A stretch of DNA of 28,742 nt from positions 1 through 28,742 of the IMG/VR virus record IMGVR_UViG_3300046516_001101; one strand, 5' to 3'. The position numbers and the translations under genes were made by a program. The DNA is from a virus. Shown one piece after another: positions 4,836 through 28,742 of this stretch. The notes beneath the pieces are model-generated. The model was given only the letters and a program-made list of their open reading frames with translations, searched no databases and had not been told where the DNA came from. The first letter of the stretch is position 1, and each line of letters begins with the position of its first letter.

Positions 4836-5148
4836 CTTCTTCATCCTCGTTTTCAATAGAAATAATATCTTGCAATTTGTCTAGCTTTTTAGATGTTCTT
4901 TTGGTTGATACTAGAAGTGATTTTAATTGTTGCATGGCAATTAGATAACTCTCTTCTCCATCTTGGTTCATATGATAACAATCAAAAAATTCAATAAAAG
5001 ATTCTATAATTTCGCCTTTAAGGTTATAAAGGCATATTGCCTGTTCAAGATCACCATAATCCGTCAAATCTAAAGTAGTTACTAGAGATTGTAAATCAAG
5101 TAAAGCTTTATGCAAAATTTCGATAAAAATTTCTAAACGAGTATTCAT
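4828..5148 (-). CDS. acidic helical protein, probable family C member, 106 aa
   Basis: The N-terminus (MNTRLEIFIEILHKALLDLQ) has the same spacing of hydrophobic residues as the M-x-x-Y-I-E-I genes downstream, so I place it in the family with less certainty. The C-terminus ends in a very acidic run (IENEDEEDE), which encodes the ribosome site of the next gene. Its start shares one base with the previous stop (TGATG). Function unknown. Confidence 0.55.
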   Translation of the reverse strand: MNTRLEIFIEILHKALLDLQSLVTTLDLTDYGDLEQAICLYNLKGEIIESFIEFFDCYHMNQDGEESYLIAMQQLKSLLVSTKRTSKKLDKLQDIISIENEDEEDE

Positions 5149-22980: not shown

Positions 22981-23007
22981 TTCTCGCTCGAATTTTTAGA
23001 GCGGGAA
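22981..23007 (-). repeat. hairpin overlapping the coat stop codon
   Basis: On the minus strand TTCCCGCTC pairs with GAGCGAGAA (nine positions, one a G-T wobble) around TAAAAATTC; the stop TAA is the first part of the loop. It has the position of an attenuator or 3' end protector for abundant coat mRNA. The following bases (TTGTCC) are not a U-tract. Confidence 0.5.
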
Positions 23008-24234
23008 GATGACGGAGATAGCATACTCGTCGACTAGAGTCGATCCCCATATACAATCATGGACCATTCCACGCTGATTTTGGCCAAATAAACTTCCATA
23101 ATACTGACGAATACTTACGCCGGTATCAGGGTCATGGTCACTGCTTGTTGGGAATGGAACTTCTTCTGGTAACTTAGGCATTGCTAAGTAAAATGCATCT
23201 CCAGAATAAATCATTCCAGCTCTATGAGATGGAAGCGCTAGAACCTGCATACCGGGTTGGATTGCATTATTCAAGTTCTGGTCATTCGTAGGCGCAATTT
23301 GTAATGCTGGGAAGATATTGACCGTAACCTGACTACCACCAGTTGAACCAGCGTCAGCAGTTGCGCGGAATTGCACAGGGACAGCCGAAGTTTGGTGACC
23401 AACAAAGGTAAGGAAGCGCATATTAGGCTGACCAGCAACTCCGTCTTGGAATTGGAACTTGTCATATTGCTTAACAGAGTTAGGGTCAAGAGCTGCGCTT
23501 GTACCACTAAATGTGATAGCAATGACAGCACCATTAGCATCTAGAGTAGTAGAAACTACTGTTAGAGTTGTTTGAGTTTGACCTTCGGTTCCTGCTATGT
23601 GAACAGGCAACAAGTTAGAGGTAAACCATTCGCAATTGCTGAAATTACCTAATTCCCAACTGTTAGCGGTTATATCATTTCGTTTTTCAGCGAACTGTGC
23701 CAAACCTGAGTTGATGATGTTAGGAATTGCAGTATCTTGCAAGAAGCCTTTAGCCATACCTTTAGCGGAACCGTAGTTACGTAATTGGGCAAGCGCTTGG
23801 GCTAGCTGCTGATAAGAGTTAATCGCTGTTAATCCGTTACCAAAGAATCTGTAAGTATTGGTTACACAATTCTGAGCAACATTAGCTTCTATTTTGGCAC
23901 CTAACTCTTCGATAGCCGATTTTCCGAAGCGACTCATGTAATCTTCAACGTTGAATATGAACTGTTGAGCAGTAAAGCTATAAGCCGTATTAGCAGCTTG
24001 AGAAACAGTTAAACTCTGTACTCTTTGGTCAGCGGATTGGAATGCTGCGACAAGAGTATTCGTTGTCGTGAAACGAGGAGGCAAATCAAAGGTAACAGTG
24101 TCACCTAAATTTGCGACTAAGTTTTCGAAGTTCTTGAACTTTGTATTAGCTTCATGAACGAAACAATTCAAATTTTGTAGATATGCCAAACCAGACATTT
24201 GGTAGGTTTGGACTTGTTGTAAAATATTTGGCAC
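22996..24234 (-). CDS. major capsid (coat) protein, P22 gp5-like
   Basis: At 412 aa it is near the length of P22 coat (430 aa). The N-terminal block (LAYLQNLNCFVHEANTKFKN, then LVANLGDTVTFDLPPRF) and the late phrases RAGMIYSGDAFYLAMPKLPE and VSIRQYYGSLFGQ are characteristic of this coat family, which takes the HK97 fold with an inserted domain (about 220-320 here). The frame begins at a GTG with GAGG nine bases upstream; the family N-terminus fits this start, so the GTG is accepted. The scaffold gene lies just upstream, the normal order. Confidence 0.85.
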   Translation of the reverse strand: MPNILQQVQTYQMSGLAYLQNLNCFVHEANTKFKNFENLVANLGDTVTFDLPPRFTTTNTLVAAFQSADQRVQSLTVSQAANTAYSFTAQQFIFNVEDYMSRFGKSAIEELGAKIEANVAQNCVTNTYRFFGNGLTAINSYQQLAQALAQLRNYGSAKGMAKGFLQDTAIPNIINSGLAQFAEKRNDITANSWELGNFSNCEWFTSNLLPVHIAGTEGQTQTTLTVVSTTLDANGAVIAITFSGTSAALDPNSVKQYDKFQFQDGVAGQPNMRFLTFVGHQTSAVPVQFRATADAGSTGGSQVTVNIFPALQIAPTNDQNLNNAIQPGMQVLALPSHRAGMIYSGDAFYLAMPKLPEEVPFPTSSDHDPDTGVSIRQYYGSLFGQNQRGMVHDCIWGSTLVDEYAISVIFPL

Positions 24235-24297: not shown

Positions 24298-25032
24298 TTA
24301 CCCTCGTAAGAGTGGAGACTTCTTTAAATCCCTAAGCGACTTGATACCTGTATCTGCGCCGACTGTAGAAGATTTAAGTCTGGATAAAGGCTCTTTAACG
24401 CCCGGATTTTGCTGCATTGCTTGCTTATTTTCTAAGATGGATTTAGATAGAGTTTGCATCATTTCCCGAGCCATATCAGGATCTGTTTTAGCCATCATAT
24501 CTATCTGCGCCAATTTGTGCGGGTTCTTTCGAAGCTCGTACATAACTTCAGGTGTATTATCCACTTCAGAGGCAAGAAACACAGTGTTAGCGAAATTTGC
24601 TGGTTTAAAGTCTTTCATTACTTCATTAAAATCATCAAAGAGTTCAGCACCCCTTCCGACCTTTAAGAAGTAATTCTGGGCTACCTGTTCCATGGCAGAT
24701 TTGTGCTCGGCATCCATTTGGGCTTGATATGCACGCTCTTGCTCTTCACGCATTTGTTGCATGATTTGATTTTTAATTTCCTCTGGGTTCATACCTTGTT
24801 GCGGAATACCGCCTTGTGGTAAAGGTTGACCTTGAGGTTGTGATTCATCAATTGGGCTCATCCCACCCATAGCTTGAGCTTGTATCGCTGCTTCCATTTC
24901 CTGCCTTACTTTCTGTTCTGTAGCAAATTTAGCTTTCCGAATAAGTTCGTTGACTCTAGATTCTGGAAGCATCTTTTCTGACGCCACCTCAACTGGAGCT
25001 TCTAAACTTTCAGCAACTACACCTTCTTCCAT
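24298..25032 (-). CDS. scaffolding protein, P22 gp8-like
   Basis: This highly charged helical protein has MLPESRVNELIRKAKFATEQ near the start, a Gln/Pro-rich middle (QPQGQPLPQGGIPQQG), a helix-rich central part and a basic C-terminus with SLRDLKKSPLLRG. A short basic C-terminal helix is what P22 scaffold uses to bind coat. The frame is open to a GTG at 25125, but I start at 25032: GGGAAG stands eight bases before this ATG, the GTG has no site, and the 31 codons upstream are far richer in G/C at third positions than the rest. With the longer start it would be 275 aa, closer to P22's 303, so the start is uncertain. Confidence 0.75.
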   Translation of the reverse strand: MEEGVVAESLEAPVEVASEKMLPESRVNELIRKAKFATEQKVRQEMEAAIQAQAMGGMSPIDESQPQGQPLPQGGIPQQGMNPEEIKNQIMQQMREEQERAYQAQMDAEHKSAMEQVAQNYFLKVGRGAELFDDFNEVMKDFKPANFANTVFLASEVDNTPEVMYELRKNPHKLAQIDMMAKTDPDMAREMMQTLSKSILENKQAMQQNPGVKEPLSRLKSSTVGADTGIKSLRDLKKSPLLRG

Positions 25033-25371
25033 TCCTTTGTCTTCCCACGTTTGCCCCGTGACGGTGTTCACCTCTGTTACGCTGAGTTCATGCGACCATT
25101 TATACCCCATTGGCTGGGTGTTCACCGGGATTAATAGGCCCGTCCTATTACATGAGTGTATATAGTCTTATTTAGAAAAGCAAGTAAATGCACTAAAATA
25201 TTTTATGATATGATTTTGAGTATAGGGACAAATGGTTTATTACACTTCGTCTATATGAATCGTCCCTGTAACGGACTCATAGCTTAAATGGAAAGCATAT
25301 TGATAAAAGGTAAGAACTAGGTCCGACACCTAGTGGGCCCGTTAATAGTTATCTAACATAATGAGTGACTT
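25033..25371. promoter_or_regulatory. scaffold leader and divergent control region, 339 nt
   Basis: Contents: two identical sites GGTGTTCACC (25063-25072 and 25117-25126), each with GGTG/CACC arms; a weak minus-strand promoter TTTACT (25183-25188), 18 bases, TATATA (25159-25164); an inverted repeat AGGGAC/GTCCCT (25224-25229 and 25262-25267); and the tRNA-like fold at 25273-25340. If scaffold starts at 25125 the first 93 bases are coding. Confidence 0.4.
25273..25340 (+). ncRNA. tRNA-like cloverleaf candidate with a degenerate anticodon arm
   Basis: The acceptor GGACTCA (25273-25279) pairs with TGGGCCC (25334-25340) in six of seven positions. T8 and A9 follow. The D-stem GCTT/AAGC (25282-25285, 25293-25296) closes a loop AAATGGA that keeps A14, G18G19 and A21. 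The T-stem CTAGG/CCTAG (25317-25321, 25329-25333) closes TCCGACA, one base from the TTCGANN form. The anticodon arm is poor: four weak pairs (TATT/GGTA), loop GATAAAA without U33. The acceptor pairing runs on for four more pairs outside (TAAC with GTTA), and no CCA follows. It is therefore probably not a working decoder: a tRNA remnant, a tRNA mimic or another structured RNA. Confidence 0.35.
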
Positions 25372-25518
25372 ATGGACAAGTACGAATTCATGTTTCATTA
25401 TTACGAAGAAACCGGAGAGTGGCTTTCTAAGTATGATTTAGATGAGGCTTACAAGGAATTTCTTAAAAAAGAGATTGAGTATATAGATTCTATGGTGGAG
25501 CAATTGAAAGATGATTGA
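25372..25518 (+). CDS. small acidic protein, 48 aa
   Basis: MDKYEFMFHYYEETGEWLSK is followed by a charged helix ending MVEQLKDD. A weak AGTGA lies just before the ATG. It overlaps the next gene by eight bases, which favours coupled translation. It is the first gene of a two-gene plus-strand island between scaffold and the portal-side genes. No family is recognised. Confidence 0.5.
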   Translation: MDKYEFMFHYYEETGEWLSKYDLDEAYKEFLKKEIEYIDSMVEQLKDD

Positions 25519-25813
25519 TAAATCTGTCGATGAAAATGACTTAGAAATAAAAAGAAAACTATTCCATGAGAATTATGTGAAAGAATTAAACGAGCAAAAG
25601 AAAAGACAAACGCTTGGTAAAAAAGAATTTAAGTTTTATATATTGAAAAATACTGGATGCATGCCTTACGGAGATTTTTTAGAATCATTATATGAAGATT
25701 ATATTAAAAGAGTTGAACTCTATAGAAAAACTCATGGCAACAATGCTAATTTATCAGAAGTTCCTTTGATTATGGTAATTCAATCAATCTCCACCATCGT
25801 AGACCAGCAATAG
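25511..25813 (+). CDS. small charged helical protein, 100 aa
   Basis: The N-terminal half is very basic and acidic helix (IKRKLFHENYVKELNEQKKR), followed by KEFKFYILKNTGCMPYGDFL and a helical C-terminus. GGAG lies ten bases before the ATG inside the upstream gene. Its last 30 bases overlap the convergent 31-aa membrane peptide gene. I recognise no domain; the function is unknown. Confidence 0.55.
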   Translation: MIDKSVDENDLEIKRKLFHENYVKELNEQKKRQTLGKKEFKFYILKNTGCMPYGDFLESLYEDYIKRVELYRKTHGNNANLSEVPLIMVIQSISTIVDQQ

Positions 25814-26504: not shown

Positions 26505-26699
26505 CTATTTTAATCTCTCGCTTTCTGCTGCATCTACTGTAATTCCAAGTTGATCAAACATCTCTAAAGCACGATCATAAAAGTCAGGATATTTAGCGCC
26601 AAGATACCCCATAATCATTAATATACATGCTTTTGTACCGCAAATATTACATTCATTTATTTTGCTTTCGATTAAACTTTCAACTTCTTCTCTATTCAA
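26505..26699 (-). CDS. small protein after the portal gene, 64 aa
   Basis: MNREEVESLIESKINECNIC starts an acidic helical protein with a C-N-I-C-x-x-x-x-C cluster (residues 17-25), three cysteines that could bind metal or form a disulfide. Its start lies eight bases inside the end of the portal gene, so its translation is probably coupled to portal. No family is recognised. Confidence 0.55.
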   Translation of the reverse strand: MNREEVESLIESKINECNICGTKACILMIMGYLGAKYPDFYDRALEMFDQLGITVDAAESERLK

Positions 26700-28742
26700 T
26701 TACGTCTACCTCCATATTCTGACCTTCTTGATGATGCTTTGCAATATCAAGTGCCACATCAATTGCCTCACGTGCCATTTCGGCATCTACACGCTCTTGT
26801 TCGATGGCTTGCTTAATCTTGCCGCTTTCAATATCGGCCATTAGCTTAATAAATTGTAACTGCACCTTTTCTTTCTCGACAGCAATCTTAGCGGCTTCAA
26901 CAGACATCTTGCCTTGGTCTGCCTCACGGCGTTGTTCGGTCTGCATCTGGGTCTTTTCTAATTCCATCTTAGCGAACTGTTCAGCATCACTTGGAGGAGG
27001 AGGCTGTTGCTTCATCGCTTCTTGTTCTTTCATGAACTCTTCGGCCTGGACCTTAAGATGGTCAATGCCTCTGATGTCCATGTTGTCAAGAAGCGTCTCC
27101 AGACCTTTCTCATTAATGAAGGCTGCAAACATTGGGCTAGCTTGCATCATTGCAGTTATTTCCTCAAGAGCCATTTGTTTTTGGATATTAGAGTTAACGC
27201 CAGCTTCTACCTTAACGCATAAGTCATTCGGGTCATAGTTCATCATGATAGCATCACGCAAGGTTGCATCATTTATTAGTTGATAAGAGCGTTTCCCATT
27301 AGACTTCATTATTGGAAGACTTCTAGGTGTCCTGTAATACTTTGGAATCAAGTCAAGCATCACTTGAGCAATTCTATTAAGACCCTTAATGTACCCCATG
27401 AGATAAGGCATTGCGGCACCATTTGATTGGAGTGCGCCCTGTTGTATGGCTTTGCCGCTTAGAGCATCCGAATTAACTGCAAGTGCCGTATCATAGCTTC
27501 CTAGAATCATTTGCGTAGTTTGGTCAGAGCCGTTGAATATCGCCTGTACAAGAGCTGGAGTTTCCGACCTTTGAATCTCTTGGGGCGGAGGTAAGGGGAC
27601 GTCTGGATTCTTGTCGAAAAATGCGTTGTAGACCAACACTGACATAACCTGTACATTCTTATACGCATCTTTGTATTCCTCTGGAATTGACTCAAGAGCT
27701 ACCTTGAACTTATGCATAACCATGTTCTGAATTTCAGCACCGATGGTTTGACCTGCAAAGTTCTTGAGCTTTTGCATGCCCATAGCGTGAAAAACGAAGG
27801 GTCGAGTCATCTGATAAGTAGCACCATTTTCCCCATCACGCATATTGATAGAGTTACCGTCTATAAATATAATTGGCAAGAATTTGAAATCCGTTTCAAC
27901 ATAATCCAATATGCCAAGTTCACAGAATCGGTATCTACAAATAGTTTGAATGACGGTTCGTCTTTCTTCAATCACGATTGGACATTGCTCAATGAAGCCT
28001 GCATCAGCCCACATTGTTTGTAGAAGCTTATAGTCATGCTTTGTAATAATGTGACCATTAGATAACTTAACAATAGTTACCTTTTTATCTTTCTTCTCAT
28101 AATAATCACAAACAAGAACAATCTCTTGTTCAGCATTCTTATAAGACCAGTTGAAGTTACTATCTAGGTTTCTTGAGAAGTTAAAGCCTTTAGTTTGGAT
28201 GTCTGGAAATTCGGCGTTAAATTCTTCAACAGTCCATGGAACTATCTTGAAGCAATAGCGACCATCGCCCTTATGAGATTCTCGAGCTAATGGGTCAAAT
28301 CCGGTTAAGGTTGGGTCGAATACGCGCTCTACTCTAATCTTTTGTTCAAATGACATTTCGTTTATATAATCTGTGTATACTTCCACAGCAGAATAACCGC
28401 CTGCAAGTAAATCAGAATAAATATTATATTCAAGAGAATCATTAGTGGCATCAAAAAATACCTCACGAAGATGAGCCTCTAAGACTTCCATCGTTGCTAT
28501 AAATTCTGGAGTTAAAGAATCAACTCGTATTCCATCTGCTGCTCTGACATTAACAGACGGTTCTTGTTTGGCAAACTCTCCTCGAAGTCTAGATATAATT
28601 GCCTCTAAGATATTAAATTCAATTGGTGGTTTTTGTAATGTCTTTAGGTTCTGAATCGTTGGGTCGTCAAGTGCCGTTTTAAAAACAAATCGTACAAACA
28701 TATGATAACGCTTTGCGTTCTCTTCAAAGTATCCGTGGGCAT
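26692..28742 (-). CDS. portal protein, P22 gp1-like, 5' end cut by window edge
   Basis: 682 codons are visible and the frame stays open to the right edge (AHGYFEENAKRYH precedes the first internal Met at 28701), so the start lies outside. The phrases EFNILEAIISRLRGEFAKQE and PSVNVRAADG, then YFDATNDSL-type and VEVYTDY segments, and FEQKIRVERVFDPTLTGFDP are those of P22-type portals (725 aa), the dodecameric ring through which DNA enters and leaves the head. The C-terminal 110 residues form a long charged coiled coil (EKEKVQLQFIKLMADIESGK), like the portal barrel. Terminase genes would be expected just beyond the right edge. Confidence 0.85.
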   Translation of the reverse strand, partial: AHGYFEENAKRYHMFVRFVFKTALDDPTIQNLKTLQKPPIEFNILEAIISRLRGEFAKQEPSVNVRAADGIRVDSLTPEFIATMEVLEAHLREVFFDATNDSLEYNIYSDLLAGGYSAVEVYTDYINEMSFEQKIRVERVFDPTLTGFDPLARESHKGDGRYCFKIVPWTVEEFNAEFPDIQTKGFNFSRNLDSNFNWSYKNAEQEIVLVCDYYEKKDKKVTIVKLSNGHIITKHDYKLLQTMWADAGFIEQCPIVIEERRTVIQTICRYRFCELGILDYVETDFKFLPIIFIDGNSINMRDGENGATYQMTRPFVFHAMGMQKLKNFAGQTIGAEIQNMVMHKFKVALESIPEEYKDAYKNVQVMSVLVYNAFFDKNPDVPLPPPQEIQRSETPALVQAIFNGSDQTTQMILGSYDTALAVNSDALSGKAIQQGALQSNGAAMPYLMGYIKGLNRIAQVMLDLIPKYYRTPRSLPIMKSNGKRSYQLINDATLRDAIMMNYDPNDLCVKVEAGVNSNIQKQMALEEITAMMQASPMFAAFINEKGLETLLDNMDIRGIDHLKVQAEEFMKEQEAMKQQPPPPSDAEQFAKMELEKTQMQTEQRREADQGKMSVEAAKIAVEKEKVQLQFIKLMADIESGKIKQAIEQERVDAEMAREAIDVALDIAKHHQEGQNMEVDVIE

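Follow-up and report, generated by a model that had tools for sequence, protein, structure and literature searches.

Many phages carry tRNAs, and opinions on what these are for remain divided. Among described systems, phage tRNA-Asn genes (RF00005) resemble the RNA element analyzed here in their cloverleaf layout, in the signature of the D and T loops, and in being short insertions in a phage genome. Unlike these genes, our copy is without an anticodon arm, has C instead of U at position 55, carries one acceptor mismatch, and has no CCA. The tRNA fragments and noncanonical tRNA genes of mobile elements are likewise low-scoring and probably not decoding, but the present element is full length and does not lie at a recognized integration site (PMC9897764). 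Phage tRNAs with altered anticodon loops have been proposed to resist anticodon nucleases and remain able to decode (PMC10264068); changes concentrated in the anticodon arm are common to these tRNAs and our element, in which, however, the stem and U33 are gone. The tRNA-like structures of plant RNA viruses, and tmRNA, also combine an acceptor and a T arm without a decoding anticodon arm. Here, the difference is that the element is not at a genome 3′ end, has no pseudoknot, and shows no tag frame. Literature searches on phage tRNA-like RNAs that are degenerate or have long arms turned up no pertinent report.

The DNA analyzed (the window, 28,742 bases of a virus record) is a contig of a phage with a P22-type portal, which also encodes a head-closure protein. 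The element lies between the portal gene and a scaffold-like gene, on the strand opposite to the head genes (Table 1). The label “scaffold-like” is based on position beside the major head gene and a Q/E-rich composition; the product is without a match in PHROG. We consider the element to be a diverged, degenerate phage tRNA gene that no longer decodes, with a probability of roughly 0.6. Judged from the ortholog described below, the ancestral tRNA was probably of the Asn type.

Table 1. Window coordinates of the features discussed in the text
Feature	Position	Strand	Remarks
Major head protein gene	22996-24234	-	PHROG 283
Scaffold-like gene	24298-25125	-	Other flank of the element; syntenic anchor; relatives found
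Putative -10 element TATGAT	25209-25214	+	TATAAT or TAGAAT in relatives; position kept in all
Hairpin TATAGGGAC/GTCCCTGTA	25221-25270	+	Stems 25221-25229/25262-25270; presumed transcript 5′ end
tRNA-like cloverleaf	25273-25341	+	Acceptor, D, and T arms fold; anticodon arm degenerate
Acceptor stem, 5′ strand GGACTCA	25273-25279	+	6/7 pairs with 25334-25340; third pair is an A-C mismatch
D arm GCTT-AAATGGA-AAGC	25282-25296	+	4/4 pairs
Degenerate anticodon arm and variable region	25297-25316	+	Without 5-pair stem; mispaired in model alignment
T arm CTAGG-TCCGACA-CCTAG	25317-25333	+	5/5 pairs
Acceptor stem, 3′ strand TGGGCCC	25334-25340	+	Pairs with 25273-25279
48-aa ORF	25372-25518	+	3′ of the element; starts MDKYEFMF
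100-aa ORF	25511-25813	+	Second of the gene pair
P22-type portal gene	26692-28701	-	PF16510, E 1.6e-75; bounds one side of the interval

Detection and fold of the cloverleaf

When the local stretch was searched alone, the Rfam tRNA model (RF00005) gave 31.5 bits, against a cut-off of 29. A covariance model was also built from the tRNA of one relative (L033, see below) and four tRNA-Asn genes, leaving the window out. With this model, the cloverleaf was the best site of the whole window, with 28 bits and an E value of 6e-7, and the runner-up site reached 12.7 bits (E = 0.06). A first-pass annotation, made from the sequence of the window, had proposed tRNA finders and covariance models as a check. 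ARAGORN at default settings did not report the site, and neither did a whole-window Rfam scan with fast filters. Taken alone, these misses would have led to a verdict of chance. The folding energy of the site is mildly unusual (z = −1.8), which is weak evidence by itself. No Rfam family, tmRNA included, reached the cut-off in the window scan, and tmRNA was also absent among the weak local matches.

The annotation had recognized acceptor, D, and T arms with T8, A14, G18G19, and A21, as well as a degenerate anticodon arm, and both observations hold (Table 1). The residues U8, A14, G18G19, A21, T54, C56, and A58 are all present. The T loop reads TCCGACA, with C at position 55 where a canonical tRNA has TTCRA with U55. 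The discriminator base is G25341, and CCA is not encoded. In the anticodon region, ARAGORN found four weak stem pairs at most, at a relaxed threshold, instead of the canonical five, with a 7-nt loop, GATAAAA, that has A at position 33 and thus no U33; at this threshold only, the program labels the copy Leu-UAA. The acceptor stem had been described as extending to 11 positions. The four added pairs (25269–25272 with 25341–25344) do exist in the window, with a probability of about 0.03 of arising by chance, but L033 retains only the first of them, and the extended form of the upstream hairpin takes up positions 25269–25270 as well. A reading of the T arm as a terminator on the minus strand was dropped, since no such terminator is kept in L033.

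An orthologous tRNA and pairing in the two copies

Relatives were gathered by scans of viral contigs with the window proteins and with DNA patterns, and the interval between the portal and scaffold-like genes could be read in eight close relatives. L033 (contig IMGVR_UViG_3300020580_000005, to which the handles L004 and L073 also refer) has a tRNA at exactly the same position, which the Rfam model recognizes with 56 bits and an E value of 1.4e-11. The other close relatives have no tRNA at this place, and the element is known from two sequences only, those of the window and L033. Against phage records, BLAST searches with the region and with 10.8 kb of the window gave no match; with just the tRNA-like part as the query, there were only weak partial matches in phages and none in plasmids. 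The conserved hairpin-loop sequence TACACTTCGTCTAT occurs in 79 stretches of viral contigs, of which only that of L033 resembles the element. The 3′ flank GTTAATAGTTAT is common to the window and L033; of 81 stretches retrieved with a pattern for this flank and checked by BLAST and a cloverleaf scan, the element was found only in the contig of L033. Pattern searches with the promoter region and the gene start yielded no additional ortholog.

ARAGORN names the L033 tRNA Ile(AAU). Its best full-length matches in phage records are mostly tRNA-Asn genes; it is 76% identical to the tRNA-Asn of Bacillus phage Grass and carries G73. Instead of the GUU of tRNA-Asn, it has the anticodon AAU, and pairs 27–43 and 28–42 of the anticodon stem are broken, which points to decay or release of the anticodon arm in both copies. 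AsnRS reads GUU and G73, and IleRS wants A73; the L033 tRNA would be a poor substrate for either enzyme. That the window copy would not be a normal tRNA, and might be a decayed one, had been suggested in the first-pass annotation, and the comparison bears this out: the syntenic tRNA in L033 is recognizable, and the window copy has lost its anticodon arm.

The backbone of the window is nearest to that of L030, with a divergence at fourfold-degenerate sites of 0.10, versus 0.53 for L033. L030 nevertheless has no tRNA at the site and a hairpin different from that of the window, so the leader segment has been exchanged, gained, or lost among close relatives.

Within the acceptor, D, and T arms, window and L033 differ by seven substitutions in 32 stem positions. 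These touch five of the 16 pairs, two of which changed on both sides in a compensatory manner, two on one side with pairing kept, and one of which is broken. The compensatory changes, which the annotation had named as a thing to look for in relatives, affect the fourth pair of the D stem (T-A in the window and C-G in L033) and one pair of the T stem. When substitutions were placed at random in the stems, the chance of breaking so few pairs while also obtaining two double changes was 0.003 to 0.013 for the transition biases assumed. Pairing of the stems was hence probably under selection for at least part of the time since the two copies separated, in contrast to that of the anticodon arm. Of 20 aligned sites in the anticodon and variable region, 10 differ, and there are two gaps; in the rest of the element, 13 of 49 sites differ. 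By itself, this contrast falls short of significance (Fisher P = 0.09).

More pairs have been retained than would be expected if the element were decaying freely, in agreement with a possible maintained function. The flanks, on the other hand, are more conserved between window and L033 than the element itself, which favors relaxed selection. Since the fourfold-site divergence from L033 ranges from 0.28 (scaffold-like gene) to 0.61 (portal gene), we do not claim stronger conservation of the arms than of neutral sites. In the lineage of the window, the stems may have escaped selection at a late stage, and the two sequences are compatible with recent decay of a tRNA in this lineage and with a maintained mimic alike.

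Leader hairpin, presumed promoter, and proposed history

The cloverleaf is placed in the leader of the gene pair that encodes the 48- and 100-aa ORFs. The former has no confident family match and the latter none. The 48-aa ORF is kept in four relatives (L030, L033, L034, and L036), and a related version is found in two more (L009 and L032). Across relatives anchored on the head protein, the interval between the portal and scaffold-like genes measures anything from about 215 to several thousand bases, which indicates that extra genes accumulate there.

The annotation had also pointed to a hairpin, AGGGAC/GTCCCT, just upstream of the element. This hairpin is real, it can be extended to the form given in Table 1, and it recurs: hairpins with different stem sequences occupy the same place in seven relatives (L030, L009, L033, L034, L036, L032, and L035), and L037 is the sole close relative without one. 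Over the eight phages, 80 of 81 listed positions are paired despite the sequence differences; because the stems were read from folds, pairing is partly given by construction, and the evidence lies in the differing sequences. Compared with shuffled sequences, the fold has a z of about −4 in three relatives and is weak in L032 and L035. L035 keeps the hairpin although the 48-aa gene was not seen there. A AAAGGTTA-like motif recurs in the 5′ half or the loop of the hairpin across these phages. The hairpin leader is thus the older part, and the tRNA was either gained by it or lost again.

The hairpins begin just past a −10-like element, TATGAT in the window, whose position is kept (Table 1). There is no good −35 element, and a sigma-70 scan does not list the site, so that we refer to it as a putative promoter.

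In the reading that we propose, a tRNA gene lies downstream of the 5′-end hairpin and ahead of the ribosome-binding region of two small genes that are transcribed independently. The anticodon arm, the Ψ55 position, and one acceptor pair of the window copy have decayed, with the acceptor, D, and T helices still able to form. Transcription of the leader would start from the promoter at approximately 25209. The tRNA-like part would fold and may be cut by RNase P on its 5′ side, which would part the hairpin from the mRNA; the resulting RNA would presumably be neither charged nor codon-reading. The remaining fold may be at most an RNase P substrate. The element seems dispensable, since close relatives are without it.

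A second hairpin was seen immediately upstream of the scaffold-like gene, at 25125–25142 (plus strand, CCGGGATTAATAGGCCCG). Here, L037 has CCAGG/CCTG and the others have CCGGG/CCCG, which is a compensatory change.

Distant relatives and alternative explanations

A different tRNA-like RNA was observed in the portal–scaffold interval of L202 (IMGVR_UViG_3300019886_000014), whose major head protein is 67% identical to that of the window. It spans 106 nt followed by CCA (positions 4901–5009 of L202) and is codirectional with the head genes, that is, on the opposite strand relative to the window element. The acceptor (7/7 pairs), D (4/4), and T (5/5) arms are perfect, and the T loop has TTCGA. In place of an anticodon arm, there is a 16-pair helix, in which one A-C mismatch separates two blocks of eight pairs. 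Only one of 500 shuffled sequences folds as well as this RNA or better (z = −3.5), and a strong hairpin at about 4862–4893 (z = −3.9) ends seven bases upstream of it. ARAGORN detects the RNA only when an intron is allowed, as tRNA-Trp, and the Rfam tRNA model does not report it. Five other distant relatives (L039, L040, L041, L043, and L044) have a normal tRNA-Asn(GUU) with an encoded CCA in the same interval. The absence of a tRNA from close relatives, together with normal tRNA-Asn genes in distant ones, indicates a turnover of tRNA genes at this place. Clusters of tRNAs occur elsewhere in several phages of the group.

Several other explanations of the window element were weighed. A chance fold, or inverted repeats at the DNA level without tRNA ancestry, would agree with the merely mild folding energy, but is contradicted by the E value obtained with the window-free covariance model and by the syntenic tRNA in L033, and we regard it as extremely improbable. 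Hardly more credit is given to a piece of a host tRNA gene left behind by integration, an option raised in the first-pass annotation. Integrated elements do leave partial tRNA genes (PMC9897764), and a relative lies in a Legionella maceachernii contig. The cloverleaf, however, is complete and sits among head genes, a better copy occupies the same site in another phage, no integrase was recognized in the genes scanned, and close relatives are without the element. In the one Legionella genome that holds a relative, which may not be the true host, there is no near-identical stretch. A working tRNA with an odd anticodon arm, which would supplement host tRNAs or evade anticodon nucleases, is somewhat less far-fetched but still improbable. 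The assignments made by ARAGORN (Leu-UAA in the window, Ile-AAU in L033) speak for it, as does the resistance to host anticodon nucleases proposed for phage tRNAs with changed anticodon loops (PMC10264068). Against it stand the missing U33, the weak anticodon stem of the window copy, and the fact that the isotype guess differs between the two orthologs. Both tRNA-Leu and tRNA-Ile have A73 as an identity element, and the G73 of the window suits neither.

More weight, though still that of a minority view, is given to a maintained, nondecoding mimic of tRNA, in which selection preserves the acceptor/T and D helices for recognition by tRNA-binding enzymes and leaves the anticodon arm unconstrained. 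Proposed roles are cleavage of the leader by RNase P or action as a decoy for host enzymes that target tRNA. The annotation had listed such mimicry among its options, and it gains some plausibility from the retained pairs, two of them compensatory, and from L202, where a nondecoding RNA with CCA again follows a strong hairpin. The anticodon arm is, moreover, abnormal in both the window and L033. What counts against mimicry is that U55 and one acceptor pair are gone as well in the window copy, that close relatives lack the element, that the element has diverged beyond its flanks, and that the L202 RNA is a single case and on the other strand. We therefore favor the reading as a degenerate tRNA gene. 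A broader idea, which we put forward as doubtful, is that this phage family carries a “hairpin plus tRNA-like” RNA in the portal–scaffold interval, with the acceptor, D, and T arms kept as a scaffold recognized by enzymes and the anticodon arm dispensed with or replaced by a long helix. If true, such RNAs would be natural nondecoding mimics that target host enzymes handling tRNA or serve in processing of the leader. A series within one interval, in which a normal tRNA-Asn is followed by a tRNA whose anticodon arm is spoiled and then by tRNA-like RNAs unable to decode, would allow a direct test of whether tRNA bodies are retained in phages for purposes beyond translation.

Two minor observations concern the surrounding genes. 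In most comparisons with relatives, the scaffold-like gene shows a fourfold-site divergence clearly lower than that of the portal and head genes. The relative in the Legionella maceachernii contig (L227) has a head protein 64% identical to that of the window, which hints at a gammaproteobacterial host.
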